In this document: positions 41,117 to 55,858 of the stretch, in pieces
How the letters are laid out: every line of letters begins with the position of its first letter
Numbering within the stretch: the stretch's first letter is position 1
NCBI RefSeq assembly: GCF_003626735.1
Contig: NZ_RBHX01000001.1
Coordinates: 2,418,001-2,482,000, forward strand
DNA: 64,000 nucleotides
Reading direction: 5' to 3'
Source of the DNA: Microbacterium sp. CGR2
GTDB lineage: Bacteria; Actinomycetota; Actinomycetes; Actinomycetales; Microbacteriaceae
Position numbers and translations under genes: made by a program
The notes under the pieces: generated by a model
What the model saw: the letters and a program-made list of their open reading frames with translations, nothing else
The model's database searches: none
What the model was told of the DNA's origin: nothing

Positions 41117-41128
41117 CCGTCAAGGATG
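41114..41128 (-). promoter_or_regulatory. Leaderless promoter of mscS
   Basis: CATCCT, TGACGG, ATG on the minus strand. No -35-like sequence at the proper distance, fitting activation from the palindrome. Confidence 0.5.
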
Positions 41129-41154
41129 CTCGCAGACACGCACTCGAGGCCGGA

Positions 41155-41181
41155 GGTGCTCACCCGCCGCGGGTGAGCACC
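41155..41181. promoter_or_regulatory. Palindromic operator site 1 (mscS / 41219)
   Basis: Perfect 27-bp palindrome with 12-base arms: GGTGCTCACCC-GCCGC-GGGTGAGCACC. Its center (41168) is 52 bases from the mscS start and 51 from the 41219 start, i.e. the same distance upstream of both leaderless promoters. Confidence 0.7.
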
Positions 41182-41206
41182 GCTCCCACCGAGCTCGCAG
41201 GCCGAC

Positions 41207-41221
41207 CAGAATATCGACATG
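41207..41221 (+). promoter_or_regulatory. Leaderless promoter of 41219 gene
   Basis: CAGAAT, ATCGAC, ATG at 41219. Confidence 0.45.
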
Positions 41222-41848
41222 ACGGATCGTCCCGAACCCTCGCAAGGCACCCGGCAGCGTGCGCTCGAGATCACCACCGTGGTTCTCCTCTCCATCACCG
41301 CCGTGCTCACCGCGTGGTGCGGTTTCGAGTCGTCGAAGTGGGGTGGCGAGATGTCCATCGCCTTCAGCCAGGCATCCAGCGCACGGATCCAGGCAGCTTC
41401 TGCCCAGGCCACGGCGCAGGCTGCGCGTCAATACGACCTGACGCTCTACACCGAGTGGGTCCTGGCCGGCGCCGACGGTCGTGAGGATCTGGTGGCTTTC
41501 GTCGAAGAGAGATTCACGGACGAGTTCGCGGTCGCCTTCGACGCATGGACGGCCGAGGGCAGAGCTTCACGCGGGCCGTTCGTGATGGCCGAGTACGTCC
41601 CGCCCGGAACGGTCGAAGCGGAGGAGCTCAACGCGCGAGCGGACGAGAAATTCGAAAAGGCGCTGGTGAACAATCAGCGCGGGGACAACTATTCGCTGCT
41701 GACTGTGCTGTTCGCCCTCGTCCTCTTCTTCGCCGCCCTCTCGCAGAATCAGCGGGCCGATTGGCGGCGGAGGGTCTTCGTCGCGCTCAGTGCAGGCATC
41801 GCCCTCGTCGGCGTGGTCGTGCTCGCGACCTTCCCCGTGAAGATCTGA
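41219..41848 (+). CDS. Uncharacterised membrane protein with coiled extracytoplasmic domain
   Basis: 209 residues. One N-terminal helix (LEITTVVLLSITAVLTAW), a helical region rich in Ala/Gln/Glu (about 35-150; SAQATAQAARQYDLTLYTEW), and two C-terminal helices (SLLTVLFALVLFFAALS and VALSAGIALVGVVVLA). I do not recognise a family with certainty; the shape resembles DUF4337-like proteins. It starts a two-gene unit with the 41851 gene (2-base gap) and is controlled by palindrome site 1. Confidence 0.75.
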   Translation: MTDRPEPSQGTRQRALEITTVVLLSITAVLTAWCGFESSKWGGEMSIAFSQASSARIQAASAQATAQAARQYDLTLYTEWVLAGADGREDLVAFVEERFTDEFAVAFDAWTAEGRASRGPFVMAEYVPPGTVEAEELNARADEKFEKALVNNQRGDNYSLLTVLFALVLFFAALSQNQRADWRRRVFVALSAGIALVGVVVLATFPVKI

Positions 41849-41850
41849 CC

Positions 41851-42909
41851 GTGTCGGCCCCGCGAGATCTGCTCACCCAGGCCCGCGCGAACGGCGAGAC
41901 GCGCGAGCGCGCACGCGAAGCCATCGGCCTCCAGATCGCGATCGTCGCTTTCATCCTCGCGGCGCTCATCGCGATCCCGGCCCTGCGTTGGCAGTCCGTG
42001 CCCATCGCCGGTCCCGAATCCCTCGGGCAATTCGTCGCGATCGCGTCCGCGGCCACAGCGCTCGTCGTCTTCGTGCTCGGACGGATCGTGGCAGCCGATC
42101 CCGGCCGTCGCCATCCCCTCGGCATCCTCGATTTCGTCGACATCGGTGCCTTCGCCTTCGCGCACGCGATGATCGCGCTGCTGGGCTGGACTCTGGTGGC
42201 CACCATCATGGAACAGGGTCTCATCGGAGCCGTCGTCTTCCCCGTCCCGTCGCTGCTGCTCTCCGGCGCCGCGGCGGCGTTGACCGCCTATGTCGTCTAC
42301 TTCTCCTCGACGCATCTAGATCTGCAGCTTCTGGCGACAGTCCTGGCGGTCTTCCTGGTGTTCGGTGTCGTGGCGAGCATGCTGACCGCCAGCGACCCGC
42401 AGTGGTGGCAGGAGAACCTCAGCGCGCTGGGCATGACGGACGACCTGTCCGCACGAACCTTCAACCTCACCCTGATCGTCGCCGGCGTCCTCGTGACGAC
42501 CCTCTCGCGCTACGCGACGCGAGGCATTCCGTCCTCGCATCCGCGCGGGGTCGGTTCCGTGCGGACCTGCCTGATCGTCATCGGGATCTTCCTGGGCTTG
42601 GTGGGTGTGTTCCCCGTCGATCGGTACTTCGTGTTGCACACCGGTGTGGCATCCGGCATGGCGGTGACCTACGGCATCCTCGTGATCGCACTGCGACGGT
42701 GGATTCCCGACGTCTCACGCACCTTCCTCGGCCTCGGCTACCTCTTCCTCGTCCTGATCGTCGTTCTCGCCGTGTTCTTCGTCGTCGGCTACTACACGCT
42801 CACCGCGGTCGAGCTGGTGGCGGGCGTCGTCATCTTCAGCTGGATCATCCTGTTCATCCGCACGGCGGATGCACTCAGGCGTGATGCCGGAGTCGCCTCC
42901 GAGGAGTGA
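41851..42909 (+). CDS. Polytopic membrane protein (DUF998-like)
   Basis: 352 residues with about ten predicted helices. Members of the DUF998 group show a similar even distribution of helices; here the features are ALIAIPALRW, RIVAADPGRRHPLGILDFVDIGAFAF, and FVVGYYTLTAVELVAGVVIFSWII. No catalytic motif. The start GTG 41851 is two bases after the previous stop; no ribosome site of note. Function unknown. It follows its partner and precedes the LuxR regulator. Confidence 0.75.
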   Translation: MSAPRDLLTQARANGETRERAREAIGLQIAIVAFILAALIAIPALRWQSVPIAGPESLGQFVAIASAATALVVFVLGRIVAADPGRRHPLGILDFVDIGAFAFAHAMIALLGWTLVATIMEQGLIGAVVFPVPSLLLSGAAAALTAYVVYFSSTHLDLQLLATVLAVFLVFGVVASMLTASDPQWWQENLSALGMTDDLSARTFNLTLIVAGVLVTTLSRYATRGIPSSHPRGVGSVRTCLIVIGIFLGLVGVFPVDRYFVLHTGVASGMAVTYGILVIALRRWIPDVSRTFLGLGYLFLVLIVVLAVFFVVGYYTLTAVELVAGVVIFSWIILFIRTADALRRDAGVASEE

Positions 42910-42946
42910 GACGAGGAAGTCCTTGAGTCCGGCGCACATCCGTCAG

Positions 42947-42961
42947 TAGGTTGATCCCATG
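42947..42961 (+). promoter_or_regulatory. Leaderless promoter of LuxR-family gene
   Basis: TAGGTT, GATCCC, ATG at 42959. Confidence 0.5.
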
Positions 42962-45505
42962 GTGTCTGCCGTGCGCACGACGAGGTCTGGACCAGCCGTG
43001 CGCTTTCGACCGCCGGCGCCGCAACCGGGAGCCATCCGGCGAGGCCGGATCACTGCGGCCATCACGGATGCCGCGCGGCTGAGCCCTCTCACCGTCGTCA
43101 GCGCACCGAGCGGTTTCGGCAAGACCACGGCGGTGGCCGATTGGGCCGCCGATCTGGAACACGTCGCCTGGCTTGCGTTGAGCTCCTCCGACTCCGACCC
43201 GTCCCGTCTCACTCAGGGGGTCGTCGATGCGCTCCTCGTCGGCGCGGAACTCGCGCACCGACCGCTCACCCTCCCACGGGATCTGGATGAGCCCGAACGC
43301 GCATACCGGGAGATCTGCCGAGCCGTCGAAGAGCTCGACGCCCCCGTCTATCTGATCGTCGACGACGCACACCGTGCGGGAGAGCACTGGCGTCAGGGTC
43401 TGCTCGGCATGCTCTCCGAACAGGCGCCAGACCAACTACGGATCGTGCTCGTGGGAACGACGTTGGTCGAACTCACCCTCTCCCGGCACCGTCTCACCAA
43501 TCCGGAGTCGTTCCTGGGCGCCGACATCCTGCGGTTCACGTCGGCCGAAGTGCGGATGCTTCTCGGTGACGGTCCGCTCGCTCTGTCACCGGAGGCCATC
43601 TTCGAAGAGACCGACGGGTGGCCCATTGCGGTCCGGCTGATGATGATCGGCGGAGCTCGCCCCGCCGCCGAGGCCGCGAGCGCTTCGAGTTTCCTCGGAG
43701 CGTATGTCCGCGAACACGTGCTCGGGGCTCTCTCGCCCGAGATCGCGAGCTTCGTGATCGATGCGAGCGTCCGCAGTGAGCTCACCGCCGAGTTGGCCGC
43801 CGCCGTGTCGGAACGGCCGGATGCTGGAGACCTGCTCGAATCCTGCATTCGGCTGGGTCTCTTCCTGGACAGATTCGACGGTGCACACGGACCCGTCTAC
43901 CGGTGGCATGCGTCGTTCGCCCGCCAGTGCGCCGACATCGGCGGCAGGGACGCCGAGCGACGCGCCGCCTGTCACCGGCGCGCGGCGGTCCATCTCGAGG
44001 CAGAGGACCCGCTGGCGTCGATATCCCACTCCCTGCACGCCGGCGACGCGGATGCTGCGCGCGAGACGCTGCTCCGCCACTGGGTGGGACTCGTGGTCGG
44101 CGCTTCCGCTGCCGAGGTCGAGTACACGACGATCGAGATGCTGCGCCACACACCGGACGACGCACAGGTGCTCCTCGTGCGCGCGTGCGCGACCGACGTG
44201 ATGGGCAGTCACCGTATCGCGCGCGAGCTGTTCCGGCGCGCCGAGGGAATGCTCGCGCGCGCGGACGACGACGTCGAGCCTGTGGTTCTCCGCATCGCGC
44301 GGCTGTTCGTCTCGGATGAGCGAGCCGACGTCGCGAACGCGAGCAACGACGTTCGGCAGATGCTGCTGCATGCCGACTCGACCGATCTGCATGATCGAGC
44401 AGCTCTCAACTATCTGCTCGGCTGGACGGAGATCCGGCACCGGGGCCACCCGGAGCTTCCCCTCGAATATTTCGCCGCGGCCGCGAGGGAGGCTCGGGTT
44501 TCGGATGATCGGGAACTGGCGAAGCGCGCGCTGGGGCACTTGGCATTCGGCCAGACCTGGGCGGGGCGGCTCCTCGATGCCAAGGAGTCGCTGGCCGAAG
44601 CCGAGGGCGAGGAGGACATCACCCTCCCGTGGAGCACCTATGCCGGGGGCAGCGCTGCGGCGGCCGCCGGCTACGTCGCGTACTGGTCCGGCGAACTCGA
44701 CGACGCACTGCGGGAGTTCCGCACGGTCATCAGCAGCGGCAGCTCCGACGGCTCTTTCAAGGGTGTCGCCCGGATGATGGTCGCGTATGCCGCGGCCGAG
44801 ACCGGTGATGTGGGGGCCTGCCGCCGCGCGGCCATCGGAATTCAGGAGATTCCGCTGCAGGTCGGGCACGGCGTCTCGTGGCCCGCGTTCCGAGAATCGT
44901 CCGTCGCCCTCCTGGAGGAAGCGGTGGGGCGACAGGATCGAGCTCTGCGCATCGCGAGGAAGTACACGAACACCCCCGATCTCCCGATCGTCAGTGTCGC
45001 CCTGGCAGGGCTGCTCCGCCGCGCCGGAGACCATTCAGCGGCTCTGGAGACACTGCGGTCGCTGCGGACATTCGCCGAGGTCTCCTACGTGAAGTCGGCG
45101 ACGCTCATCACCGCCGCGGTCCTGCGTCGACACGCCGGTCGGCACGAAGAAGCACACGAGTTGTGCGAGGCCGCCGTCGCGGTGGCGTCCGGGGAGAACA
45201 TCCGCTTGCTGTTCGGCCCGCGTGAGACCGCCGTGCGGAGACTGCTGAGCGAGCATGTCCACTTCGGCACCCAGTTCGAGGACTTCATCGGCCGGTGTCT
45301 CGCTGCCGATGCCGCCGGCTCTCTGACCGATTCGCTGTCGGAACGCGAGAGGGACGTCTTCCGCCAGTTGCAGACGGCGCGAACTCTGCCGGAGATCGCG
45401 CGCGAACTGAAGGTGTCCATCAATACGGTGAAGACTCACCAGCGCGCGATCTACCGGAAGCTCGGCGTCTCCTCCGGCCGTGAGGCCGTGCAGACGACGG
45501 TATAG
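42959..45505 (+). CDS. Large LuxR/MalT-type ATP-dependent transcriptional activator (LAL)
   Basis: 848 residues. N-terminal STAND NTPase: Walker A SAPSGFGKTTAVAD (about 48-61), Walker B PVYLIVDDAHRAG (about 129), then winged-helix and TPR-like helical repeats (about 300-750), and a C-terminal LuxR helix-turn-helix (LSERERDVFRQLQTARTLPEIARELK, VSINTVKTHQRAIYRKLGV). MalT-type proteins bind an inducer and ATP, oligomerise and activate sigma-70 promoters from sites just upstream of -35. It is the only transcription factor in the 39-57 kb block, so it is my first candidate for the CTCACCC-N5-GGGYGAG sites. Confidence 0.9.
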   Translation: MVSAVRTTRSGPAVRFRPPAPQPGAIRRGRITAAITDAARLSPLTVVSAPSGFGKTTAVADWAADLEHVAWLALSSSDSDPSRLTQGVVDALLVGAELAHRPLTLPRDLDEPERAYREICRAVEELDAPVYLIVDDAHRAGEHWRQGLLGMLSEQAPDQLRIVLVGTTLVELTLSRHRLTNPESFLGADILRFTSAEVRMLLGDGPLALSPEAIFEETDGWPIAVRLMMIGGARPAAEAASASSFLGAYVREHVLGALSPEIASFVIDASVRSELTAELAAAVSERPDAGDLLESCIRLGLFLDRFDGAHGPVYRWHASFARQCADIGGRDAERRAACHRRAAVHLEAEDPLASISHSLHAGDADAARETLLRHWVGLVVGASAAEVEYTTIEMLRHTPDDAQVLLVRACATDVMGSHRIARELFRRAEGMLARADDDVEPVVLRIARLFVSDERADVANASNDVRQMLLHADSTDLHDRAALNYLLGWTEIRHRGHPELPLEYFAAAAREARVSDDRELAKRALGHLAFGQTWAGRLLDAKESLAEAEGEEDITLPWSTYAGGSAAAAAGYVAYWSGELDDALREFRTVISSGSSDGSFKGVARMMVAYAAAETGDVGACRRAAIGIQEIPLQVGHGVSWPAFRESSVALLEEAVGRQDRALRIARKYTNTPDLPIVSVALAGLLRRAGDHSAALETLRSLRTFAEVSYVKSATLITAAVLRRHAGRHEEAHELCEAAVAVASGENIRLLFGPRETAVRRLLSEHVHFGTQFEDFIGRCLAADAAGSLTDSLSERERDVFRQLQTARTLPEIARELKVSINTVKTHQRAIYRKLGVSSGREAVQTTV

Positions 45506-45547
45506 ACCCGGGTCGATGCTCTCGGCGGGGTCGCTGCCAACGCCGCG

Positions 45548-45982
45548 TCACTGCCGCCGCAGCGCCGTCTCGAGGACCGCGTTCGCGACCGCGGCGGGGA
45601 TGGGCTGCGTGCTGACGATGCGGTCGCCGTGCGGACCGAGATCACGCGAGAGCCGTTCGCTCCAGGTCGGCTCGACGAGGATCAGCGCTGCGAGCGCGCC
45701 GACCGGGAGCGCGGGTACGAAGTGCCGGACGTCGTCCTCGGTCACGATGCCCGGGATGTAGAGTCCGAGGCCGGCGAGAGCGAAGTCGTCCGCATCGACC
45801 TCGGCGATCCGATAGTCGTCCACTGTGAGGCGTTGAACGACGACCACGTCGAGAAGACGCAGCGCGCCGGCTTCAACCTGCCGCAGCAGCGCCTCGAGGA
45901 CCGTGGGGCTGAGGTGGTCACTGTCGAGTTGCACGACGATGAACTCGACGTCGCCGAGCGCGTTCTGCATCACACCGACCAC
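45548..45982 (-). CDS. DUF6325 family protein, copy 1
   Basis: 144 residues, a soluble two-layer domain repeated in DUF6325 proteins: DVEFIVVQLDSDHLSPTVL, ALRLLDVVVVQRL, and the C-terminal VEPTWSERLSRDLGPHGDRI with PIPAAVANAVLE. The second copy (49439) matches over its length in these blocks. Function unknown. GTG 45982 with GAGGG five bases upstream; it follows the SHOCT gene by 14 bases in the same transcript. Confidence 0.8.
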   Translation of the reverse strand: MVGVMQNALGDVEFIVVQLDSDHLSPTVLEALLRQVEAGALRLLDVVVVQRLTVDDYRIAEVDADDFALAGLGLYIPGIVTEDDVRHFVPALPVGALAALILVEPTWSERLSRDLGPHGDRIVSTQPIPAAVANAVLETALRRQ

Positions 45983-45996
45983 CTCAACCCTCGCGA

Positions 45997-46383
45997 TCAG
46001 CGCAGAGCGCGCGCCTTGATGGCGGCGAACTCTTCGTTGGTGATGGTTCCGGCCGCGAGCAGCTTGGATGCCTTGTCGATCTCATCGCTGGGACTCGAAC
46101 CGGCGACGCTGCGGATGTACGAGTCGGCTGCGTGCTGCTGCTCTCGGTAGGCCGACGCGGTGCGCTCCGCCATGCCACCGCCGCGCGCGATGAGGTAGAC
46201 GAGCGCCGTCAGGAAGGGCACGAAGACCAGGAAGATCATCCAGATCGCCTTCACCCACCCCTTCACCGCGGAGTCCCGGAACAGGTCGGCGATGATGTTG
46301 AACAGCACCATCAGGTACGAGATGAACACGAACGCCCAGAAGAACCATCCGATGATGGCCCAGAAGCTTTCCCAGAGAGACAC
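45997..46383 (-). CDS. Membrane protein with PLDc_N and SHOCT domains
   Basis: 128 residues. N-terminal two helices with WESFWAIIGWFFWAFVFISYLMVLFNII and WVKAIWMIFLVFVPFLTALVYLI, the PLDc_N (phospholipase D-nuclease N-terminal) type membrane segment, then a short linker and a C-terminal SHOCT domain (DEIDKASKLLAAGTITNEEFAAIKARAL), which is a small oligomerisation or binding helix pair. SD AAAGGAG before GTG 46383. Promoter CAATAT at 46425-46420 is 39 bases from palindrome site 2. Confidence 0.85.
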   Translation of the reverse strand: MSLWESFWAIIGWFFWAFVFISYLMVLFNIIADLFRDSAVKGWVKAIWMIFLVFVPFLTALVYLIARGGGMAERTASAYREQQHAADSYIRSVAGSSPSDEIDKASKLLAAGTITNEEFAAIKARALR

Positions 46384-46419
46384 TGCGGACTCCTTTCGTC
46401 GAGGTACTGCAGTATCGCG

Positions 46420-46425
46420 ATATTG
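46420..46425 (-). promoter_or_regulatory. -10 box of SHOCT-DUF6325 operon
   Basis: CAATAT on the minus strand, predicting a start near 46413 and a 30-base leader with a good ribosome site. Confidence 0.4.
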
Positions 46426-46454
46426 ACACCGCGCGAGCGGGCTCGCGCGCGCAG

Positions 46455-46473
46455 CTCACCCGGATAGGGCGAG
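46455..46473. promoter_or_regulatory. Palindromic operator site 2 (SHOCT operon / AI-2E copy 2)
   Basis: CTCACCC-GGATA-GGGCGAG, one mismatch to symmetry. Center 46464 lies 51 bases from the predicted minus-strand start (46413) and 53 from the plus-strand leaderless start (46517). Confidence 0.65.
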
Positions 46474-46504
46474 CCGACTCGTCGGCTCCCCGTGGCGGCC
46501 CCGG

Positions 46505-46519
46505 TAACCTCACCGTATG
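46505..46519 (+). promoter_or_regulatory. Leaderless promoter of AI-2E copy 2
   Basis: TAACCT, CACCGT, ATG at 46517. Confidence 0.5.
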
Positions 46520-47644
46520 AGCGGTGCCGAGCCCCAGCCGGGCATGAGCGAAGACGACGGTGACAGCCGATCGCGGCTGACCAGAGTCCTGCCCGCCAGG
46601 CCCCTGCTGTCGGGCTTCAGCGTGGGAGTCGGGGTGATCCTCGCCATCGCGCTCGCCGCCACCATCGCCGGTATCTCCACCGTCCTCATCTCGATCTTCC
46701 TCGGCATGTTCCTCGCGCTCGGCCTCGATCCTGCGGTGCGCGCGCTGGAGCGCCGGGGCATCCGTCGTCCGGTGGGCGTCGCGATCGTGGCCGCGGTGTT
46801 CCTCGCTTTCGTGATGGTGATTCTGCTCGTCGTCGTGCCGGCCACGGTTCGACAGCTCGCCGCGGCGATCCAGGCGGCCCCCGAGGGCATCGAAGCGATG
46901 CAGCAGGCGCAGTGGTACACCGAACTGGAGCAGAGTCTCGGCGTCGACCTGTCCGACGTCATCGCAGACGGGGTGCATTCGCTCACGACGCTGTCGTCCT
47001 TCCTCGCCATCTCCGGCGGCGTCCTCCGTGTGGGGATCGGTGTGATCGGCGGCGTCTCGAGTTTCATCATGGTCGTCGTCCTCACCCTGTACTTCGTGAC
47101 TTCGCTCGAGAGCATCAAAGGAGCGATCGCCAGCCTCGTGCCGCGCTACCGTCGAGAGCGCTTCGTCCGTCTCCTCGACGAGATCACCGGGTCGGTCGGC
47201 GGCGTGGTGGCGGGCGGCGTCACCTTGTCGACCGTCAACGCGGCTGTCGTCCTGGTCATACAGCTGGCCGTGGGTTCGTCGATCCCCGCGGTCATGGCGA
47301 TCGCCGCTTTCTTCATCACGCTGGTACCGATGATCGGCTCGCTGGTGTTCCTGGTCGTCGGCACCGTCTCGACTCTGTTCGTCAGCCCGACCGCCGCCCT
47401 GATCTTCGCCGTCGCCTATCTCGTGTACATCCAGGTGGAGGCCTACTACGTCACGCCGAGGGTCATGGGACGAGCAGCCGCGGTGCCGGGCGTCCTCGTC
47501 ATCATCGGCGCGATGGTCGGTGCGACCCTGATGGGCCTCCTCGGAGCGCTCGTCGCGATACCGATCACAGCCTCGATCCTGATCGTCATCAGACAGGTGT
47601 GGATCCCTCGGCAGAACCGGCGGACGGTGCCGCCGGACGACTGA
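46517..47644 (+). CDS. AI-2E family transporter, copy 2
   Basis: 375 residues, eight predicted helices, AI-2E type: LISIFLGMFLALGLDPAVRALERRGIRRP, RLLDEITGSVGGVVAGGVTLS, FFITLVPMIGSLVFLVVG, and IQVEAYYVTPRVMGRAAAVPG. Diverged from copy 1 at 39099 but of the same family. It may export small molecules. It lies between palindrome sites 2 and 3. Confidence 0.88.
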   Translation: MSGAEPQPGMSEDDGDSRSRLTRVLPARPLLSGFSVGVGVILAIALAATIAGISTVLISIFLGMFLALGLDPAVRALERRGIRRPVGVAIVAAVFLAFVMVILLVVVPATVRQLAAAIQAAPEGIEAMQQAQWYTELEQSLGVDLSDVIADGVHSLTTLSSFLAISGGVLRVGIGVIGGVSSFIMVVVLTLYFVTSLESIKGAIASLVPRYRRERFVRLLDEITGSVGGVVAGGVTLSTVNAAVVLVIQLAVGSSIPAVMAIAAFFITLVPMIGSLVFLVVGTVSTLFVSPTAALIFAVAYLVYIQVEAYYVTPRVMGRAAAVPGVLVIIGAMVGATLMGLLGALVAIPITASILIVIRQVWIPRQNRRTVPPDD

Positions 47645-47650
47645 GCCGTG

Positions 47651-47669
47651 CTCACCCCATTGGGGTGAG
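47651..47669 (+). promoter_or_regulatory. Palindromic operator site 3 (sulP1 operon)
   Basis: CTCACCC-CATTG-GGGTGAG, a perfect 19-bp palindrome. Its center is 42 bases before CATGAT (47702-47707), the likely -10 box, with a predicted transcription start near 47713. Confidence 0.65.
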
Positions 47670-47701
47670 ATTGCGAACCGCAGCTGTGCGGGCGATGCCA
47701 G

Positions 47702-47707
47702 CATGAT
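47702..47707 (+). promoter_or_regulatory. -10 box of sulP1 operon
   Basis: CATGAT; the -35 position (about 47679) has no recognisable element, consistent with need for an activator. Confidence 0.35.
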
Positions 47708-47748
47708 TGGCACATCGTTCTGCGTGGCGAGGGCACGGAGGTGAAGAG

Positions 47749-49446
47749 GTGCAGAGACCGCTGGTCGGGTTGACGCGGAGGAATCTGCTGCGTGAGCTTC
47801 TCGCCGGTGTCACGCTGCTGGCCATCGCCATGCCGCTCAACATCGGCTACGCCCAGATCGCCGGCCTTCCGCCGACCGCGGGGCTGTACGCGCTGGTGGT
47901 CCCGACGATCGTCTACGTGCTGGTGGTGTCCTCCCGGCAGGTCGTCGCCTCCCCGGATGCTGCGGCGGCGGCGCTCGTCGCCTCGTCCATCGGAGGACTG
48001 GCGGCGGCAGGCTCTGAGGACTACGCGACGATGGCCCTCGCGCAGGCGATCCTCTGCGGAGTCATGTTCATCCTGCTCTCGGTGTTCAAGCTCGGCCTCC
48101 TGGCGAACTTCCTTTCCAAGCCCATCCTCGTCGGGTTCGTGGGTGGCCTGGCTCTCGACATCCTCGTGTCGCAGGTCGCGAAGATGCTGGGCGTGAAGAT
48201 CGACTCGGGCGGCGAGTTCCTCGAGAAGCTGGGCGACCTGCTCGGTGGGCTGGGTACTGCGAACGTGTGGGCCGTCGTCATCTCCGTGGCATCCGTGGCG
48301 GTCCTCCTGCTCGGGAAGAAGTTCCTGGGCATGGTGCCGTGGGCGCTGGTGGTCATGGTCGCCGCGACGCTTCTCGTCGTCAGCGCAGGCCTGGATGCAA
48401 AGGGCGTGGCCGTACTCGGGGAGGTGCCGGCGGGAGCGCCGACTCTCACCTGGCCGATGCTGGACTGGCAGACCTGGCTGCTTCTCGTGCCGTCGGCGAT
48501 GGCTCTCACTCTCGTCACGACCGCCGAAGGACTGCTCGTCTCTCGCTCCTACGGCGAGAAACGTCACTACCGCACCGAGCCGAACCGCGACCTGCTGGCC
48601 TTCGGCGTCGCGAACATCGCCGCGGGCGCGCAGGGAAGCTTCGCCGTGGGATCCTCCACGAGTCGTACCGCCGCCATGGACCAGTCCGGGTCGCGCACCC
48701 AGTTGCCCTCGCTCGTCCTCGCGGTCGGCACCTTGCTGCTGCTCCTGTTCGGCACCGGGCTGCTGGACAGTATCCCGTCGCCTGCGATCGGAGCCATCGT
48801 CGGTGTCGCCATCCTGCCGCTGCTCGGATTCCGGGAGTTCGCGGCGCTGTGGCGTATCGACCGGTTCGAGTTTCTGATCGGTGCGGTCTGCTTCCTCGTC
48901 ACGCTGTTCATCGGATCCATCCCCGGCATCCTCGTCGCTTTCGTGCTTGCGCTGATCAACATCGCCAAGCGTGCGGCCACGCCCGCCATCGACGTACTGG
49001 CAGACAACGACAACCCCCGTGAATCGCTCCTCCAAGAAGCACCGCAGGGTTCGACCACCGCGCCGGGCCTCGTGGTCGTGCGAATGGCGGCGCCGCTCTT
49101 CTTCGCCAACGGTGACACGTTCACCCAAGCCGTCCGTCATGCGGTGACCTTTCCCGGCCCCGGTGCCGTCCGGCACGTGGTGATCGATATGGAGGCGGTC
49201 ACGGATGCCGACGTCACCGCCGCCGAATCCTTCGATGGACTGGTGAGTTGGCTCGACGATCAGGGAGTCACACTGTCGTTCAGTCGCCTCCGCGCCAGCG
49301 CCCGTACACGGCTCGAGCGGTTGGGCATTCTCGGTGGGCAGCGAATCTTCGACACGAACCGCGCGGCCGTCGCGGAACTGGCCGCCCCGCGATCGCAGAC
49401 CAGTGGGCCAGCCTCCCACCCAGAGAAAGGGAAACTTCATGAATGA
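47749..49446 (+). CDS. SulP/SLC26 family anion transporter with STAS domain, copy 1
   Basis: 565 residues. Membrane domain (about 15-430, roughly 12-14 helices) with AMPLNIGYAQIAGLPPTAGLYALVVP, the signature of SulP helices 1-2, SFAVGSSTSRTAA (substrate region) and a C-terminal STAS domain (about 445-550) containing VVIDMEAVTDADVTAAESF. The family moves sulfate, bicarbonate or other anions. SD CACGGAGG seven bases before GTG 47749. First gene of an operon running through sulP2. Its stop overlaps the DUF6325 start. Confidence 0.92.
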   Translation: MQRPLVGLTRRNLLRELLAGVTLLAIAMPLNIGYAQIAGLPPTAGLYALVVPTIVYVLVVSSRQVVASPDAAAAALVASSIGGLAAAGSEDYATMALAQAILCGVMFILLSVFKLGLLANFLSKPILVGFVGGLALDILVSQVAKMLGVKIDSGGEFLEKLGDLLGGLGTANVWAVVISVASVAVLLLGKKFLGMVPWALVVMVAATLLVVSAGLDAKGVAVLGEVPAGAPTLTWPMLDWQTWLLLVPSAMALTLVTTAEGLLVSRSYGEKRHYRTEPNRDLLAFGVANIAAGAQGSFAVGSSTSRTAAMDQSGSRTQLPSLVLAVGTLLLLLFGTGLLDSIPSPAIGAIVGVAILPLLGFREFAALWRIDRFEFLIGAVCFLVTLFIGSIPGILVAFVLALINIAKRAATPAIDVLADNDNPRESLLQEAPQGSTTAPGLVVVRMAAPLFFANGDTFTQAVRHAVTFPGPGAVRHVVIDMEAVTDADVTAAESFDGLVSWLDDQGVTLSFSRLRASARTRLERLGILGGQRIFDTNRAAVAELAAPRSQTSGPASHPEKGKLHE

Positions 49447-49873
49447 CTTCCGTTTCGGACCTGCCGAGTTCTATCTCGTCGGGTTCGAGGGCGCGCGCCC
49501 CGATCCGGCGACCTTCAGCGCGTTGACCGACCTCATCAAGAGCGGGACTGTGCGTCTCCTCGACTTCGTCCTGCTCAGCAAGTCGGCAGCGGGCGAAGTC
49601 GAGATCCTCGAGCTCGAGTCGGAGGACGGGGCGCCAGGGTTGGGCGGCTTCGAACCGATCGCCGCCGGACTCGCGGGCGACGAAGACGTCGAGGCGCTGG
49701 CGAGCGCCGTGCCTCCAGGACAATCCGCCGCGATCGTCGTCCTCGAACTCGCGTTCGCCCGGACGCTCGCCCAGAACCTCGCCGCAGCAGGCGGTCAGGT
49801 GCTCCGAAGTGAGCGCGTACCGGCACCTGTGGTGAACGCCATGATGGACATCCTCGACCAGGAAGGTGAATGA
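49439..49873 (+). CDS. DUF6325 family protein, copy 2
   Basis: 144 residues. GPAEFYLVGFEGARPDPATFSAL, SGTVRLLDFVLLSKSA, DEDVEALASAVPPGQSAAIVVLELAFA and GGQVLRSERVPAPVVNAMMD align with copy 1 (45548). No signal peptide or membrane helix, so cytoplasmic. SD AAAGGGAAA; overlaps the sulP1 stop by 8 bases and precedes the second SHOCT gene by one base, the same DUF6325-SHOCT pairing as in copy 1, in reverse order. Confidence 0.82.
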   Translation: MNDFRFGPAEFYLVGFEGARPDPATFSALTDLIKSGTVRLLDFVLLSKSAAGEVEILELESEDGAPGLGGFEPIAAGLAGDEDVEALASAVPPGQSAAIVVLELAFARTLAQNLAAAGGQVLRSERVPAPVVNAMMDILDQEGE

Positions 49874-49874
49874 C

Positions 49875-50216
49875 ATGCCCTTGAGAAGATTCGGCCGACC
49901 CGGACTGATCGGTCTCGCCGCTCGGACGGCCGTGGTGGCGGGAACCGCGTCCGCCGTGCAGGGTGCCGCGACCAGGAATCAGCAGCAGCGTGCGCAGAGC
50001 CAGTACGAGCAGCAGCAGTACGAGGCAGCGCAGCAGCAGGCTCAGATCGATGCGGCGGCTCAGAATGCGGCGGCGCAATATGCCACTCCCGCACCGGCGG
50101 CTCCGGCAGGAGGGGATGACCTGATCGCCAAGTTGCAGCAGCTCGCTTCGCTCAAGGACTCGGGAGTGCTTTCCGAGGAGGAGTTCGCGGCGGCGAAACA
50201 GAAACTGCTCGGCTAG
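49875..50216 (+). CDS. SHOCT-domain small protein, copy 2
   Basis: 113 residues. Basic N-terminus, a hydrophobic stretch GLIGLAARTAVVAGTASAVQGAA that may anchor it in the membrane, a Gln-rich coiled segment (NQQQRAQSQYEQQQYEAAQQQ), and a C-terminal SHOCT domain (DLIAKLQQLASLKDSGVLSEEEFAAAKQKLLG). SD AGGAAGG eight bases before ATG 49875. Differs from copy 1 in its N-terminal part but shares the SHOCT end. Confidence 0.85.
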   Translation: MPLRRFGRPGLIGLAARTAVVAGTASAVQGAATRNQQQRAQSQYEQQQYEAAQQQAQIDAAAQNAAAQYATPAPAAPAGGDDLIAKLQQLASLKDSGVLSEEEFAAAKQKLLG

Positions 50217-50248
50217 ATGATCCACCGCAACGTCGAAGGAGGATGAGC

Positions 50249-50923
50249 ATGGGACCGATCATCGGCGAGTTGCTGCCGCTTGCTGTGGGTATCGCGATCA
50301 GTCCGATTCCGATCATCGCCGGCATCCTGATGCTGCTGTCGCCGCGCGCGCGGTCGACGGGCGTCGGTTTCCTGCTCGGATGGCTCGCCGGCATCATCGT
50401 CGTCACGACCGTGTTCACCCTCCTCTCTTCGGTGCTGCCGGAGGAGTCCGAAGACTCGTCGAAGCCGGTTCTGGGCGTGGTGCAGGTCCTGCTCGGAGCG
50501 CTCCTGGTGCTGCTCGCTGTGAAGCAGTGGCGGGGACGGCCCCGCGGCGGTGCTGAGGCGGCCATGCCGAAATGGATGCAGCAGATAGACGGGATGTCGT
50601 TCGTCTCGGCTCTCGGGCTCGGGCTGCTCCTGTCGGGCGTGAACCCGAAGAACCTGCTTCTCGGTGCGAGCGCAGGATTGTCGCTCGGCGGTGCAGATCT
50701 GTCGGGAGGCGAGACGGCGCTGTCGGTCTTCGTCTTCACCGTCCTCGCCGGGTCCACAGTGCTCATCCCGGTCATGGGCTTCCTGCTCGCGTCGGAGAAG
50801 CTGCGGCAGCCCCTCGACCGATTGCGCGACTGGCTTCAGGCCGAGAACGCGGTCATCATGACCGTCCTGCTGCTCGTGCTCGGAGTCGTCGTGATCGGCA
50901 AGGGCCTCACCGCGTTCGGCTGA
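50249..50923 (+). CDS. GAP family (Sap-like) membrane protein, copy 1
   Basis: 224 residues with six predicted helices. GAP (glycolipid addressing protein) family: IIGELLPLAVGIAISPIPIIAGILML, GFLLGWLAGIIVVTTVF, MSFVSALGLGLLLSGVNPKNLLL and LDRLRDWLQAENAVIMTVLLLVLG. Mycobacterial GAP/Sap helps move glycopeptidolipids to the surface, so a role in envelope lipid transport is possible. SD AAGGAGG before ATG 50249; the ATG at 50243 sits on the ribosome site. Confidence 0.86.
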   Translation: MGPIIGELLPLAVGIAISPIPIIAGILMLLSPRARSTGVGFLLGWLAGIIVVTTVFTLLSSVLPEESEDSSKPVLGVVQVLLGALLVLLAVKQWRGRPRGGAEAAMPKWMQQIDGMSFVSALGLGLLLSGVNPKNLLLGASAGLSLGGADLSGGETALSVFVFTVLAGSTVLIPVMGFLLASEKLRQPLDRLRDWLQAENAVIMTVLLLVLGVVVIGKGLTAFG

Positions 50924-50972
50924 GCCGCCGCACTGTCGACAAGCGTGTCATCCAACCGGAGGGAATGAGCGA

Positions 50973-52373
50973 ATGGGTGAAGTCGAAGACCTGCGCGCGC
51001 GACTGCAGCAGCTCGAGCAGGAGAATGACGCCCTGAGGAAACCGCGCCGCAGAGTCTCCGGCAGGAGTATCGTCGCCGGGATCCTGCTGGTGCTGGCCGT
51101 CGTGATGGCACCGATCGCCGCCATGGGAACCTGGGCGCGGCTGCAGCTCGTCGACGCTGATCGGTTCGTCGCGACCTTCGCACCGCTGGCGGAAGACCCC
51201 GACGTTCAGGACTTCGTCGCCGATCAGGTGACCGCTGCCATCGACGAGCGCGTCGACCTCACTGCCGTGGTGGGCGACGTGTTCGACGGCTTGCGCACCC
51301 TCGATCTTCCTCCGCGCGCAGACTCTGCTCTCACGCTTCTGGAGGCTCCGGCGGCGACCGGATTGAGATCGCTGGTCGATGGCGTCGTGCGCGATGTCGT
51401 CGCCTCGGAGCAGTTCGCCGACATCTGGGCGCAGTCGCTGAGATTCACGCATGAGCGCGCGGTCGCGATCATGCAGAACAGCCCCGACACCGCGCTGCAG
51501 CTGGCCGACGACGGTGTGCTGTCGGTCGATCTCGGCATCGTCGTCGAGCGGGTCAAGACCGTGTTGACGGAGAGGGGCGTCGGGTTCGCCGACTTGATCC
51601 CCGAGATCGATCGATCGGTTCCGATCGCTCAGGCCGATGCGCTGATCATGGTGCGGACGCTCTATCAGGTGGCGGTCGCTGCCGGTTTCTGGATGCCTTG
51701 GGTTGTTCTCGGATTGTTCGTCGTCGGCGTGCTTGTCGCCCGCAGCCGCTCGCGTGCCCTGCTGTGGACCAGCGCGGCGTTCGCCGTGGTCTTCCTGCTC
51801 TTCGCCGCCGGCGTCGGGGTGGGGAGAGGATTCTTCGTCGGCGCGGTGAGTCCGTCCGTGATGTCGGCAGCAGCGGCGGAGTCGGTCTTCGACGAACTCA
51901 CGTCCCTACTGAGTTCGACGGTCGTCGCGTTGGCGCTGGTCGGTGTGCTCATAGCTGTCTGGGCGTGGCTTGCCGGTTCGAGTCGGAACGCCGCGGCGGT
52001 GCGCGGTGCCTTCGAGAGCGGGTTCTCGTCGATCCGGAGGGCGGGGGAGCGGCGAGGGTTGTCGACCGGCCGGTTCGGAGCCGGCGTCGACCGCTTCCGC
52101 GGACCGATCCTCATCGCCGGGTTGCTCATCGGGGTGCTCGTCCTCATCACGACGCGGCCCGTCACCTTCGGCGCGGTCGTCGGGGTCTCCGTCGGTCTGC
52201 TGGTGCTCGTTCTCCTGGTCGAGGTGCTGCGGAGACCTGACGAAGGGCATCCCGACGCCGTGGATCCCGAAGAGGACGTTTCCGCGGGGACGTCGAACAT
52301 CGACGTGCCGCTCGCGGATTCCCGCGTGCCGGATGCGGTCCCGGACTCGTCCTCCCGCACCGGGACGCCGTGA
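50973..52373 (+). CDS. Multi-pass membrane protein with N-terminal coiled coil, unknown function
   Basis: 466 residues. Cytoplasmic coiled coil (EVEDLRARLQQLEQENDALRK), helix 1 (SIVAGILLVLAVVMAPIAAMG), an extracytoplasmic domain (about 60-240; DADRFVATFAPLAEDPDVQDFV, TLLEAPAATGLRSLVDGVV), then three or more helices (about 215-310) and two helices near 370-410 with an acidic tail. I do not recognise the family; a similar layout is found in actinobacterial membrane proteins of unknown role. SD GGAGGG nine bases before ATG 50973. It lies between the two GAP genes. Confidence 0.75.
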   Translation: MGEVEDLRARLQQLEQENDALRKPRRRVSGRSIVAGILLVLAVVMAPIAAMGTWARLQLVDADRFVATFAPLAEDPDVQDFVADQVTAAIDERVDLTAVVGDVFDGLRTLDLPPRADSALTLLEAPAATGLRSLVDGVVRDVVASEQFADIWAQSLRFTHERAVAIMQNSPDTALQLADDGVLSVDLGIVVERVKTVLTERGVGFADLIPEIDRSVPIAQADALIMVRTLYQVAVAAGFWMPWVVLGLFVVGVLVARSRSRALLWTSAAFAVVFLLFAAGVGVGRGFFVGAVSPSVMSAAAAESVFDELTSLLSSTVVALALVGVLIAVWAWLAGSSRNAAAVRGAFESGFSSIRRAGERRGLSTGRFGAGVDRFRGPILIAGLLIGVLVLITTRPVTFGAVVGVSVGLLVLVLLVEVLRRPDEGHPDAVDPEEDVSAGTSNIDVPLADSRVPDAVPDSSSRTGTP

Positions 52374-52390
52374 GCCGTCTGGCGTGACAG

Positions 52391-53106
52391 ATGTTCGGTG
52401 CCCTGTGGCAACTCATCCCGGTGGCCATCGGCGTGATTGCGAGCCCGGTGGCCGTGATGGCGCTGATCGGCGTCCTGTTGTCTCAGAATTCGCGGCGCAA
52501 CGGTGCCGCGTTCCTGGCGGGGTGGGTGGTCAGCGCGACCGTGCTGTGACCGTGGGACTGCTGGCGTTCTCGGCGGCGGACACACCTGGCGCGTTCCGAT
52601 CGGCTCCCTGGGTGCCCATCGTCCACGCGGTCATCGGCGTCGTCTGCACCGGAGGTGCGCTGTGGACTTTCTTCCGGGCCCGACTGGTGGTCGCGCGGGT
52701 GGCCGAGGCGCATACGCCCGACGAGCTCACCGCGGCCACGCCGCAGCTGCCTGGTCTCGTCCGCTCGGTCGAGCGGTTCACCCCGGGACGCTCGTTCCTG
52801 CTCGGGTTCGGGATCTTCCTCACGCCGATGAACATCGCCCTCGTGGCCGCAGCGGCGATCGGAATCGTGCTCGCCCGGCTGCCGGAGCCTCAGCTTCTCC
52901 TCACGGTGTGCGGGTTCCTCGCGGCGGCCGCGGCCCCCGTGGCGATTCCCGTCTTCAGCGTGCTGGCACGCGGCGAGGAGGCTGACCCGATGCTTCGACG
53001 ATTGCGGCGATGGATGCTGCACCGCAGCGGGTTCCTCACGGCGGCGGTGCTGCTGCTCGTCGGCGTCCTCCAATTCGTGAAAGCACTTCAGGGGTGGTTC
53101 TCGTGA
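52391..53106 (+). pseudogene. GAP family membrane protein, copy 2, split by a one-base frameshift
   Basis: The first frame begins at ATG 52391 (ALWQLIPVAIGVIASPVAVM, AFLAGWVVSATVL) and stops at TGA 52547-52549 after 52 codons. The remaining GAP homology, TVGLLAFSAADTPGAF.. to the C-terminal VLQFVKALQGWFS, is in the next frame to 53106. Adding one G after CTG at 52546 would restore GWVVSATVL-VTVGLLAF, matching GWLAGIIVVTTVFTLL of copy 1. The break creates GTGA (52546-52549), so the second part could restart by coupling; a split functional gene is therefore an alternative to a pseudogene or a sequencing error. Confidence 0.8.
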
Positions 53107-54785
53107 CAGTCGGGCAGAGCTGGAGCCGGTACCGTCGTCGGTTCGGATCGCGGAAGACGATCGCGCAAGACCTCAAGGCCGGGATCGTCCTGGGCGTCGA
53201 GAGCGTGCCGGACGGCCTCGCCGCCGGGCTTCTCGCGGGCGTCAACCCGTTGTATGGTCTCAACGCCTACATCGTGGGCACCCTGTTCGGCGCAGTGGCG
53301 ACCGGGTCGGTCTTCATGACGGTGCAGGCGACGGGAGCGATGGCCGTCATCGTCGCGGACGTCCCCGAGATCCACGGTCCGGATGCCGTCGGCGCGATGG
53401 CGATGATGACCGTCATGGCGGGGATAGCGATGCTGGCGCTCGGGATGGCCGGACTCGGCAAGCTCGTCCGCTTCATCCCCGCCGCCGTGCTCATCGGCTT
53501 CGTCAACGCCGTGGCGGTCAATATCGTCCTCAGCCAGCTCGCGAACTTCACGGGTTTCGTCAGCACCTCCGGCAACCGCCTGACCCGCGCGGTGGACACC
53601 GTGCTGCATATCGCGCAGGTGAGCTGGCTGTCGATCCTGGTCGGGGCCGTCACCGTCCTGCTGATCCTCGTGCTGGAGCGCACCCGACTGGGTGCACTGT
53701 CGATGGTCGTGGGGATCGTGGTCGGCTCCGCTCTGGCGCAACTCCTTCCCCACGGCGCGGTGGCCATGATCTCGGATGTCGCGGAGGTCGAGCGCGGCAT
53801 CCCGAGGCTTTCGCTGCCGGATCCGTCCATGCTCCTCGCGCTGATCGTTCCGGCACTCTCCCTCGCCCTTGTGGGCCTGGTGCAGGGAGCCGGGATCTCC
53901 GGATCCATCCCCAACCCCGACGGCAGGTACCCGGACGCCTCCGCCGACTTCCGGGGCCAGGGGATCGCCAACATCGCCACGGGAATGCTGCAGGGCATGC
54001 CCGTCGGCGGATCGATGTCGGCGACCGCGCTCGCGCGGGCGGCGGGAGCGAAGAGCGCGTCAGCGAACCTCTTCGCGGGGATCGTGATGGTGTCGATCGT
54101 GCTGCTGTTCGCTCCGCTGATCGGCTACATCGCGATGCCCGCGCTCGCCGGCCTGCTGATCATCATCGGAGTGCGCACGTTCAAGACCGAACAGATCATC
54201 ATGGTCTTGAAGACGGGACCGGTCCAGATCGCAGTCTTCCTCGTGACCTTCGCGCTCACCCTGCTCATCCCGCTGCAGTACGCCGTTCTGACCGGGGTCG
54301 GACTCGCCGTCGTTCTGCACATCGCCCGCCAGTCCAATCGCGTGCGGATGAAGCGGTGGGTCTTCGACGACGACAGCGGACGGCCACTCGAGACGACGCC
54401 GCCCGAGACGCTGGGCGCGGGGGAGACCGTCATCCTGACTCCGTACGGGAGTCTGTTCTTCGCGTCGGCGGACTCGTTTCGACAGCAACTCCCCACACCG
54501 GAGAGGGATGCGACGGACGCGTTCGTCATCCTCCGCCTCCGCGGGACGGATGAACTGGGTGTGACCTTCCTCACGATGCTGCGCGCCTACGCCGCCGAGG
54601 TACGGGCGGCCGGAGCGACGCTGATGGTGGCGGGGATCGGTCCACGTGTTTCCGCACAACTGGCATCCACGGGCGTGCACCGTGCGATCGGCGAGGCGAA
54701 TCTGTTTCTCGAACGGCCCCGGGTCGGGGATGCGGTGCACGAGGCCGTGGCCGAAGTGTCGCGACGGAGAACGCAGACAGGATGA
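53103..54785 (+). CDS. SulP/SLC26 family anion transporter with STAS domain, copy 2
   Basis: 560 residues. Membrane domain (about 25-420) with GIVLGVESVPDGLAAGLLAGVNPLYGLNAYIVG, GNRLTRAVDT and MPVGGSMSATALARAAGAKS, then a STAS domain (about 445-545; ETVILTPYGSLFFASADSFR). It differs strongly from copy 1, so the two may move different anions. Its GTG start overlaps the GAP stop (GTGA). It is the last gene of the sulP1 operon and converges with the HAD gene. Confidence 0.9.
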   Translation: MTVGQSWSRYRRRFGSRKTIAQDLKAGIVLGVESVPDGLAAGLLAGVNPLYGLNAYIVGTLFGAVATGSVFMTVQATGAMAVIVADVPEIHGPDAVGAMAMMTVMAGIAMLALGMAGLGKLVRFIPAAVLIGFVNAVAVNIVLSQLANFTGFVSTSGNRLTRAVDTVLHIAQVSWLSILVGAVTVLLILVLERTRLGALSMVVGIVVGSALAQLLPHGAVAMISDVAEVERGIPRLSLPDPSMLLALIVPALSLALVGLVQGAGISGSIPNPDGRYPDASADFRGQGIANIATGMLQGMPVGGSMSATALARAAGAKSASANLFAGIVMVSIVLLFAPLIGYIAMPALAGLLIIIGVRTFKTEQIIMVLKTGPVQIAVFLVTFALTLLIPLQYAVLTGVGLAVVLHIARQSNRVRMKRWVFDDDSGRPLETTPPETLGAGETVILTPYGSLFFASADSFRQQLPTPERDATDAFVILRLRGTDELGVTFLTMLRAYAAEVRAAGATLMVAGIGPRVSAQLASTGVHRAIGEANLFLERPRVGDAVHEAVAEVSRRRTQTG

Positions 54786-54817
54786 CCGCGGAGCGGCTCA
54801 TCCGACCGGGGGAGCCG

Positions 54818-55774
54818 TCACCGGGCGTCGGCCGGAGAAGCCGAAGGATCGGGGAACACCGTCGCCCAGTCCTCTCGCACGCTGACCACCGTGTAGTCGT
54901 TGTCGGGAGCGGCGGCGAGGGCCTTGTCCGCCCCGGCGTCATAGGGCGCGTCGCCTCGCCCGTCGTCGTCGTGATGGACCAGCAGAGCGAATCCCGGGCG
55001 AGGTCCGCGGCGGGCGAAGTCCAGCATCGGCATGTCGCCGTTGGAGTTTCCTGCTGCGAACAGCGGGCGTCGTCCGATCCTGGCCCAGATCCGGATCGGC
55101 TTCTCTCCTCCGTCGTCGAAGAAGTCCAGCGCGGGGGAGTAGCGCACGGTGGCGGCATCCTCGTCGTAGGTGAGCCCGAAGGCCGAGCCGATCACGCGCT
55201 CCGGCGGGATGCCGTAGTTGGTCTGCGTCATCGGACGCATGAAGTCGCGCTCGCCGCCCGAGACGATGTAGCACGTGAAGCCGTGGCGCTCGAGGTATCG
55301 CAGCAGCTCGACCATCGGCTGATAGACCGCTTCGGCGTAGGGGCGCCGGGAGATCGGATGCCGTGCTGTGCGATAGAACTCGCTCACGGCCTCCGCGTAG
55401 TCCTCGACGCTCATACCGTCGTTGAGGCCGACGAGCGCCGAGAGCAGCACCTTCAGGTCCGAGTCGTCGCCCGCGTAGTGCTTGTCGATCGCGGTGCCGA
55501 GCCACGCGAGATCGCCGCTCGTCGCCGCCAGATAGGGCTGTCGTCGGGCGAGCTCAGGATTGCGCTCCGCCACGACTCGCCATCGCTCCACGACGTAGTG
55601 AAGTTGCGTGGGCATCGGCTTCTCCGCCCAGAGAGTGCCGTCGTTGTCGAACACCGCGATGCGTTCCTCGATCGGCACGGCACGCGGACCGTCGACGACC
55701 GAAGCGACGAACGCCTCGATGGCCCTGCGTGTGGGGGTGTCGCGCCACGAGGTCAGTCCAGCCGGATCATTCAT
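54818..55774 (-). CDS. HAD-family phosphatase
   Basis: 318 residues. HAD motif I FDNDGTLWAEKP, motif II VSGGERDF (Ser), motif IV FAAGNSNGDMPML. The N-terminal cap (about 50-150) is typical of nonspecific acid-phosphatase-like HAD proteins. Substrate unknown; no signal peptide. ATG 55774 has GAGGAAGAGA upstream; the in-frame ATG at 55813 is not needed. Site 4 and CACCAT (-10) lie upstream. Confidence 0.87.
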   Translation of the reverse strand: MNDPAGLTSWRDTPTRRAIEAFVASVVDGPRAVPIEERIAVFDNDGTLWAEKPMPTQLHYVVERWRVVAERNPELARRQPYLAATSGDLAWLGTAIDKHYAGDDSDLKVLLSALVGLNDGMSVEDYAEAVSEFYRTARHPISRRPYAEAVYQPMVELLRYLERHGFTCYIVSGGERDFMRPMTQTNYGIPPERVIGSAFGLTYDEDAATVRYSPALDFFDDGGEKPIRIWARIGRRPLFAAGNSNGDMPMLDFARRGPRPGFALLVHHDDDGRGDAPYDAGADKALAAAPDNDYTVVSVREDWATVFPDPSASPADAR

Positions 55775-55803
55775 TCTCTTCCTCGCTCTTCGGTCGACGT
55801 TCC

Positions 55804-55858
55804 ATGGTGCCATCGGGCGCCGAGGGGGAGCCCGACGGGGTCACCCGGCATGGGCGAG
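55804..55858 (-). promoter_or_regulatory. Palindromic operator site 4 and -10 box of the HAD gene
   Basis: GTCACCC-GGCAT-GGGCGAG (55840-55858), two mismatches to perfect symmetry; CACCAT on the minus strand at 55809-55804 is 40 bases from its center, predicting a 22-base leader. Confidence 0.5.

Follow-up and report, generated by a model that had tools for sequence, protein, structure and literature searches.

A Conserved Palindrome in a Microbacterium Membrane-Gene Cluster as the Likely Operator of a Cluster-Encoded MalT-Like Activator

Introduction

Large ATP-binding regulators of the LuxR family (LAL) are common in actinobacteria, and the operators and targets of few of them are known. This study concerns a palindrome, CTCACCC-N5-GGGYGAG, and a LAL gene that share one gene cluster of Microbacterium sp. 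CGR2. The window, the whole stretch of DNA that was analysed, comprises 64,000 nucleotides of this genome (assembly GCF_003626735.1, contig NZ_RBHX01000001.1, positions 2,418,001 to 2,482,000 of the forward strand), and coordinates are positions within it. The palindrome very probably serves as the operator of the regulator encoded by the cluster itself, a MalT-like protein of the type known as signal transduction ATPases with numerous domains (STAND). An original prediction, made from the letters of the window alone, had described a regulon served by this palindrome, and its claims are taken up below where the results bear on them.

Organization of the Cluster

The genes and candidate operator sites of the cluster are as follows.

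39099..41116, minus strand: mscS (40283-41116) and AI-2E copy 1 (39099 to about 40238), presumed to be one unit read from site 1 (Pfam MS_channel_2nd and AI-2E_transport)
41159..41177, no strand: putative operator site 1, CTCACCC-N5-GGGTGAG, 0 mismatches, between the divergent mscS and 41219 gene
41219..42909, plus strand: a gene without Pfam match (41219-41848) and a DUF998 gene (41851-42909), ahead of the LAL gene
42959..45505, plus strand: LAL/MalT-like STAND-type regulator of 848 aa, the proposed activator by its domains and its co-occurrence with the sites
45548..46383, minus strand: genes of a SHOCT/PLDc_N protein (45997-46383) and a DUF6325 protein (45548-45982), by Pfam
46455..46473, no strand: putative operator site 2, 0 mismatches, between the divergent SHOCT/DUF6325 genes and AI-2E copy 2
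46517..47644, plus strand: AI-2E family transporter copy 2, by Pfam
47651..47669, no strand: putative operator site 3, 0 mismatches, upstream of the sulP1-DUF6325b-SHOCTb-SfLAP-...-sulP2 unit
47749..54785, plus strand: sulP1, DUF6325b, SHOCTb, SfLAP, the 50973 gene (no Pfam match), a second SfLAP gene that seems frameshifted, and sulP2
54818..55774, minus strand: HAD-family hydrolase
55840..55858, no strand: putative operator site 4, 1 mismatch to the strict form, upstream of the HAD gene

The products of the presumed targets belong mostly to membrane families (MscS, two AI-2E, two SulP, DUF998 and SfLAP, judged to be membrane proteins by family) or to families of unknown function (DUF6325 and SHOCT), together with the HAD hydrolase. 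The product of 41219-41848 appears hydrophobic by eye. The LAL gene starts 49 nt downstream of the 41219-DUF998 pair and is thus probably driven from site 1 as well, by cotranscription with the pair, which would imply autoregulation and positive feedback.

The 42959 protein has an N-terminal P-loop NTPase and a C-terminal LuxR/GerE helix-turn-helix (HTH), two features expected of LAL/MalT-type STAND regulators. A Walker A motif (APSGFGKT) lies at residue 49 and a Walker B-like motif (LIVDD) at residue 132, and the HTH (PF00196) was found at residues 791-845 with an E value of 4.9e-13. In the middle of the protein, where such regulators have a TPR-like superhelical sensor, matches to TPR repeats were weak (6e-5 and 5e-4, below the curated cut-offs). 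The NCBIfam MalT equivalog profile NF003420 matched residues 16-410 (1.2e-45) and the solved MalT chain 8bob matched residues 25-378 (2.7e-21), so that likeness to the MalT profile is confined to the N-terminal module. The protein is not to be named MalT, since its score of 155.9 bits against NF003420 misses the curated cut-off of 537.

The Palindrome in the Window and in the Genome

The strict form of the site is CTCACCC-N5-GGGYGAG, and its relaxed form is TCRYCC-N5-GGRYGA. All four copies with N5 spacing named in the original prediction are present, the fourth with its single mismatch. Site 1 is enclosed by a 27-bp perfect palindrome (41155-41181). The two arms are exactly inverted in two of the four sites and differ at a single position in another; the remaining site is one base off the strict form. 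Their half-sites are GGGTGA or GGGCGA, and the Actinoplanes-type hexamer GGATGA is absent from all four.

Between 39000 and 57000, four relaxed sites were counted against a mean of 0.09 and a maximum of 1 in 400 first-order Markov sequences, and three strict sites against a mean of 0.0000 and a maximum of 0. No relaxed site was found in the window outside these limits. The palindrome is real. A scan that allowed three mismatches was dropped as evidence, as its 28 matches stood at chance level (32.8 in shuffled sequence), and thus only the close class of sites counts.

In the whole genome the relaxed form occurs 15 times, compared with 2 for the reversed control, and sites with at most two mismatches to the strict form are in slight excess (77 vs 61 and 50). 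A regulon extending past the cluster was considered and rejected: of the 11 relaxed sites outside it, 8 fall inside open reading frames (ORFs) and 3 do not, by a crude codon-usage test, and for this reason the regulon looks essentially local in this genome. Eleven one-mismatch strict sites also lie outside the cluster. Four of these were counted as intergenic (L006, L008, L012 and L014, the first two touching ORF ends), and none has on either side an AnnnT, the pattern followed here for the -10 element, with its A at 39-41.

Conservation in Microbacterium Relatives

Thirteen named Microbacterium loci were compared, each encoding an orthologue of the 42959 protein at 64-77% identity. Their sites follow NTCAYCC-N5-GGGTGAN with some variation. 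A site was found upstream of SHOCT in 13/13 loci and upstream of DUF6325b, which is there the first gene of the site-3 unit, also in 13/13. A member of the site family precedes mscS in all 10 loci that hold this gene, and HAD in 11/11 loci with the upstream region in view (L052 has no HAD gene in the stretch and L058 is cut). The 5-base spacers have diverged between relatives while both arms stay. All 57 relaxed sites in the 13 loci lie outside tblastn-defined homologues of the window genes, which cover 86% of the span; the count maps only genes homologous to those of the window. Conservation upstream of orthologues and absence from the mapped coding sequence therefore hold in the relatives. 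Neither of the two outcomes named beforehand as refuting the prediction came about, and the comparison supports what had been predicted, a shared site and a local regulon of mostly membrane or envelope genes.

Across 198 genomes of the genus, the strict palindrome has 28 occurrences in 22 genomes, compared with 2 for the reversed control. In G184 the same palindrome with an identical spacer was seen on two contigs (C1:2295307 and C2:214938), perhaps a duplicated promoter region.

Promoter Geometry of the Sites

The predicted -10 elements in the window are listed below; offsets are counted from the site center.

41126..41131, minus strand: predicted -10 of mscS (GAGCAT), beginning 37 from the site center
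41209..41214, plus strand: predicted -10 of the 41219 unit (GAATAT), beginning 41 from the site center
46420..46428, minus strand: predicted extended -10 of SHOCT (TGTCAATAT), TG at +36
46505..46510, plus strand: predicted -10 of AI-2E copy 2 (TAACCT), beginning 41 from the site center
47696..47704, plus strand: predicted extended -10 of the sulP1 unit (TGCCAGCAT), TG at +36
55804..55812, minus strand: predicted extended -10 of HAD (TGGCACCAT), TG at +37

The -10 hexamers thus start 37 (mscS), 41 (41219 gene), 39 (SHOCT), 41 (AI-2E), 39 (sulP1) and 40 (HAD) bases from the center. The distances first proposed (39, 40, 41, 39, 42 and 40, taken in the order in which the prediction names the units) agree in range, and single values differ by up to 3.

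A promoter profile was built from 62 of 96 non-redundant promoters (those of DUF6325b, SHOCT, HAD, mscS and sulP1, the other 34 being excluded), aligned on the site center. The strongest block besides the site itself is T36 G37 ... A40 ... A43 T44, an extended -10. Weaker columns of about 0.5 bit stand at +19, with a preference for C, and at +51. No TTGACA-like -35 was seen in the 62 aligned promoters, as had been expected from the window. An AnnnT with its A at +40 was found in 15 of 18 DUF6325b promoters, 16 of 18 SHOCT promoters and 3 of 3 sulP1 promoters, in 8 of 12 for HAD (4 at +41) and in 6 of 11 for mscS (5 at +41); the mean over all offsets in these groups is 0.09-0.74. With AnnnT at a fixed offset in five gene groups, non-homologous promoters agree. 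If the conserved A of the -10 is set as -11, the site center falls near -51 of the predicted start, and its downstream arm stops near -43 without reaching the -35. The class II-like position assigned to the site at first is therefore not supported; a center near -43 belongs instead to a second class of regulators (class B, below).

Co-Occurrence of the Site and the Regulator

The link between the site and the LAL was followed in the genus around DUF6325b, which has matches in 72 of the 198 genomes; small pieces around it were examined from 64. Of the 15 genus genomes whose LAL reaches 55%, 9 contain the strict palindrome. Among the 42 examined genomes in which no LAL reaches 43%, 13 carried a site in the small pieces. 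LAL presence at E 1e-50, tried as the sole test of co-occurrence, proved misleading on account of these 13 genomes. When 12 of the 13 site-bearing clusters were fetched widely (G013 was left out), a divergent LAL was found in 12/12, at 25-45% local identity.

The site-less genomes were treated likewise, 28 of 29 being fetched widely around DUF6325b (in sets of 8 and 20). No LAL was found in the fetched stretch in 27 of the 29 site-less clusters, and the other two (L248 and L235) have LALs of clade C, described below, that of L248 standing at a contig edge. The second of these two belongs to G154, the 29th site-less genome, where the clade C LAL lies about 4 kb from DUF6325b, with no exact site in 20 kb. 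For the first 20 clusters, 12/12 vs 0/8 gives p 8e-6 if they are independent, a descriptive value, since the site itself guided the choice of clusters, which moreover share ancestry. Site density was 0.249/kb in the 13 LAL loci, 0.200/kb in the 12 divergent-LAL loci and 0.006/kb in 8 LAL-less loci; the reversed control gave 0 in all three sets. In the wide stretch L246, which has two sites, extension of the stretch revealed a class B LAL at distances of 5.4 and 7.7 kb from them. The naming of the 42959 protein as the candidate regulator is supported by this co-occurrence, as far as genome comparison can indicate.

Two observations concern LAL-less clusters. In L186-L191 the upstream regions of SHOCT are different and alike within subsets, as if another promoter type served SHOCT there. 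In G089, positions 2004-2117 of L116, just upstream of DUF6325b, were matched in a one-locus search to the initial 38 residues of the LAL and no further (55%, E 3e-7); the match fell short of 1e-5 in a wider search of the same region (L251), and the 3.4 kb of L116 hold no site. This stretch is possibly the remnant of a lost LAL.

Comparison With Known Systems

In Actinoplanes sp. SE50/110, the regulator MalT (ACSP50_3915) was reported, from deletion and overexpression, to activate a maltose-regulated large genomic region, with higher expression on maltose (PMC7567727). Its motif is given as TCATCC-5nt-GGATGA, with a 3' end 34.4 +/- 1.0 nt from the start and overlapping the -35, and related species likewise have it near the homologous gene (PMC7567727). 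The Microbacterium cluster resembles this published system in having a large LuxR/MalT-like regulator within the local region that it controls or, here, would control, inverted hexamers with a 5-nt spacer upstream of many units of the cluster that holds the regulator, and many unknown and membrane genes. It differs in the half-site, which is GGATGA in Actinoplanes and mainly GGGTGA here, and in the distance from the motif end to the start, about 43 nt here for a predicted start. Actinoplanes belongs to the family Micromonosporaceae, and Table 1 of the article lists amino-acid metabolism genes, and SHOCT, AI-2E and sulfate are absent from its main text (PMC7567727).

The MalT box of E. coli and Klebsiella is quoted in the same article as GGGGA(T/G)GAGG, and its core GGA(T/G)GA resembles GGRTGA (PMC7567727). 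Like the 42959 protein, MalT of these bacteria combines a P-loop module with a C-terminal LuxR HTH (STAND mechanism in PMC4381067), but it uses repeated boxes, not one inverted pair, and activates maltose genes. Streptomyces PAS-LuxR and SARP-LAL regulators are also cluster-situated and LuxR-family or LAL-related, with other domains and targets according to titles and abstracts. No account of the Microbacterium system was found in the openly licensed literature, among the matches listed. The kind of switch proposed here is already described for Actinoplanes MalT, here with different genes and an unusual promoter distance. The prediction of an undescribed regulon accordingly has to be qualified for the general scheme, a MalT-like activator with TCATCC-5nt-GGATGA over a large local region having been published (PMC7567727), and stands for the GGGTGA half-sites, the DUF6325/SHOCT/AI-2E/SulP/MscS gene set and the two promoter geometries, which are new here.

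Proposed Mechanism and Alternative Explanations

Very probably, judging from the sequence comparisons, the cluster's own LAL/MalT-like protein (42959-45505) has its operator in the palindrome and would act there as an activator that switches on six units. Comparison supplied the site, its conservation, its link to the LAL and the promoter geometry; to these the model would add binding, activation, an inducer and a physiological role. By analogy with MalT, the LAL would sense an inducer together with ATP and then assemble. Its LuxR-type HTHs would bind the two inverted GGRYGA half-sites (mostly GGGTGA) on either side of the 5-nt spacer, with the center about 51 bp upstream of the predicted start. 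The protein would then bring RNA polymerase to promoters that have an extended -10 (TGnnAnnAT) but lack a recognisable -35. The units activated would be mscS-AI-2E, 41219-DUF998-LAL, SHOCT-DUF6325, AI-2E, sulP1 to sulP2 and HAD, probably including the LAL itself. One such switch would join MscS and SulP to several little-known or uncharacterised families (DUF6325, SHOCT, DUF998, SfLAP and AI-2E) and so hint at a shared role at the envelope; a response of the envelope or of ion balance is our guess. For one LAL clade it would also provide an operator, a promoter geometry and a list of targets, all open to test.

Several results weigh against this model. Conservation and co-absence are not independent, as relatives share ancestry and the clusters were selected by site. 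Of the 22 genomes whose LAL reaches 43%, only 14 show a site in the small DUF6325b pieces, partly because DUF6325b is often, in the window too, an internal gene of a longer unit. Four LAL loci (L234, L235, L236 and L242) have no exact site in 20 kb and two (L237 and L238) have one each; one-mismatch sites occur in three of these site-poor LAL loci (L081, L083 and L198). The strict palindrome was also found in 13 of 183 other genus genomes, for which the protein search was limited to 4 scored candidates per genome. Within the 28 wide stretches, L190 (one site), L250 (one) and L263 (two) have sites with no LAL in view, and a further 13 kb of L263 showed none. Finally, the -10 signal is weaker for gene 41219 (2 of 5, with 2 more at +41) and for the AI-2E/DUF998/DUF6325a set (11 of 28 with A at +40).

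The few sites without a LAL in view, together with the fact that LAL binding is predicted from sequence, could mean that the site belongs to another regulator, such as a response regulator or the neighbouring MarR, and that the LAL is a co-regulated neighbour. This is very unlikely, given that L186-L191, L249, L253 and L263 keep the order AI-2E, SHOCT, DUF6325, SHOCT, DUF998, AI-2E with no LAL and no site at these genes, that a MarR homologue was found in only 1 of the 13 named loci (8-kb flanks), and that the motif resembles the MalT-type operator as published (PMC7567727). It is hardly conceivable that the palindromes are terminators, hairpins, repeats or coincidences of codon bias. GC-rich palindromes are common in a high-GC genome and loose matching is at chance level, but the spacers vary with both arms kept, the -10 distance is fixed, none of the 57 sites lies within homologous genes, and the reversed control is low (28 vs 2 in the genus, 15 vs 2 in the genome, 0 in the locus sets).

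The sign of the regulation is not given by sequence alone, and the LAL-type protein SCO6993 has been reported as a negative regulator (PMC9628970), so the LAL could bind the site and repress, or both repress and activate. We consider this unlikely: the site lies upstream of the -10 and does not cover it, the promoters combine a fixed spacing with the lack of a recognisable -35, and Actinoplanes MalT is reported to activate, from both deletion and overexpression (PMC7567727).

Two Promoter Geometries in One Genus

The LALs found near sites fall into classes, two of which (A and B) differ in the position of the -10. AnnnT was counted in site flanks with an ORF start downstream, and such flanks include directions without a true promoter. 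For class A, the type of the window, 97 flanks from the 13 named loci contained 63 AnnnT whose A stands at 39-41 and 7 whose A stands at 31-33. The corresponding counts were 11 and 2 in 15 flanks for three loci with 55-60% identity, and 15 and 0 in 24 flanks for nine still more remote ones, among them loci from other genera of the family. Class B gave 9 at 39-41 and 37 at 31-33 in 71 flanks, and clade C, with no clear preference, gave 4 and 6 in 17 flanks. The -10 A of class B stands at +32/+33, about 8 bp closer than in class A, which places the site center near -43. From motif end to predicted start, class B has about 35 nt and class A about 43 nt, so that class B matches the spacing reported for Actinoplanes, unlike the class A of the window (PMC7567727).

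In a midpoint-rooted tree of 39 proteins, a long branch leads to a clade of the class B LALs that has 100/100 support, and the class A LALs make up almost a single group, into which one motif-less protein falls. Beyond the HTH, class B proteins are also longer by roughly 8-15 residues. These results may point to two only remotely related MalT-like activators that control one rearranging envelope gene set via essentially the same palindrome in two architectures, the classical one near -43 with an ordinary -10, and that of the window about 8 bp further upstream, not a whole helical turn, with an extended -10. This reading is tentative, and we lean slightly away from it. If true, the operator outlived a change of regulator or was re-used across it, the window-type LAL must contact RNA polymerase in a way undescribed for MalT, and the two geometries in one genus are a natural experiment on the contact between STAND activators and RNA polymerase.

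Clade C LALs accompany TCATCC-N5-GGATGA-like sites, some with one mismatch. In the recognition helix, K goes with GGGTGA, and 5 of the 6 class C proteins, which accompany GGATGA, have R; a K/R rule was reduced to a mere hint, since the regulators of L088 and L231 have K beside GGATGA. LALs near TCATCC-N5-GGATGA sites were seen in L082, L084, L088 and L243, several adjoining sulP genes. Class-wide, this motif was found in 38 of 296 genomes, with 46 forward sites vs 1 in the reversed control, mostly scattered. Two site clusters fetched from this search, L231 (G727 contig C57) and L232 (G635 contig C1), lie outside the family and have groups of exact sites around LAL-like genes; by their sequences, they are probably further regulons of this kind.

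Other Features of the Locus

The second SfLAP gene (52391-53107) is seemingly split by a frameshift: two pieces in different frames match consecutive stretches of PF11139, one at 2.9e-6, which misses the curated cut-off, and the other at 1.2e-15. Unbroken second SfLAP-like copies are present in relatives in the alignment, and the break may be a sequencing error or decay. Upstream of the MarR gene, at 39058-39100, lies an AT-rich inverted repeat around TTGCAC...GTGCAA that is unrelated to the palindrome and is perhaps an autoregulatory site of MarR.

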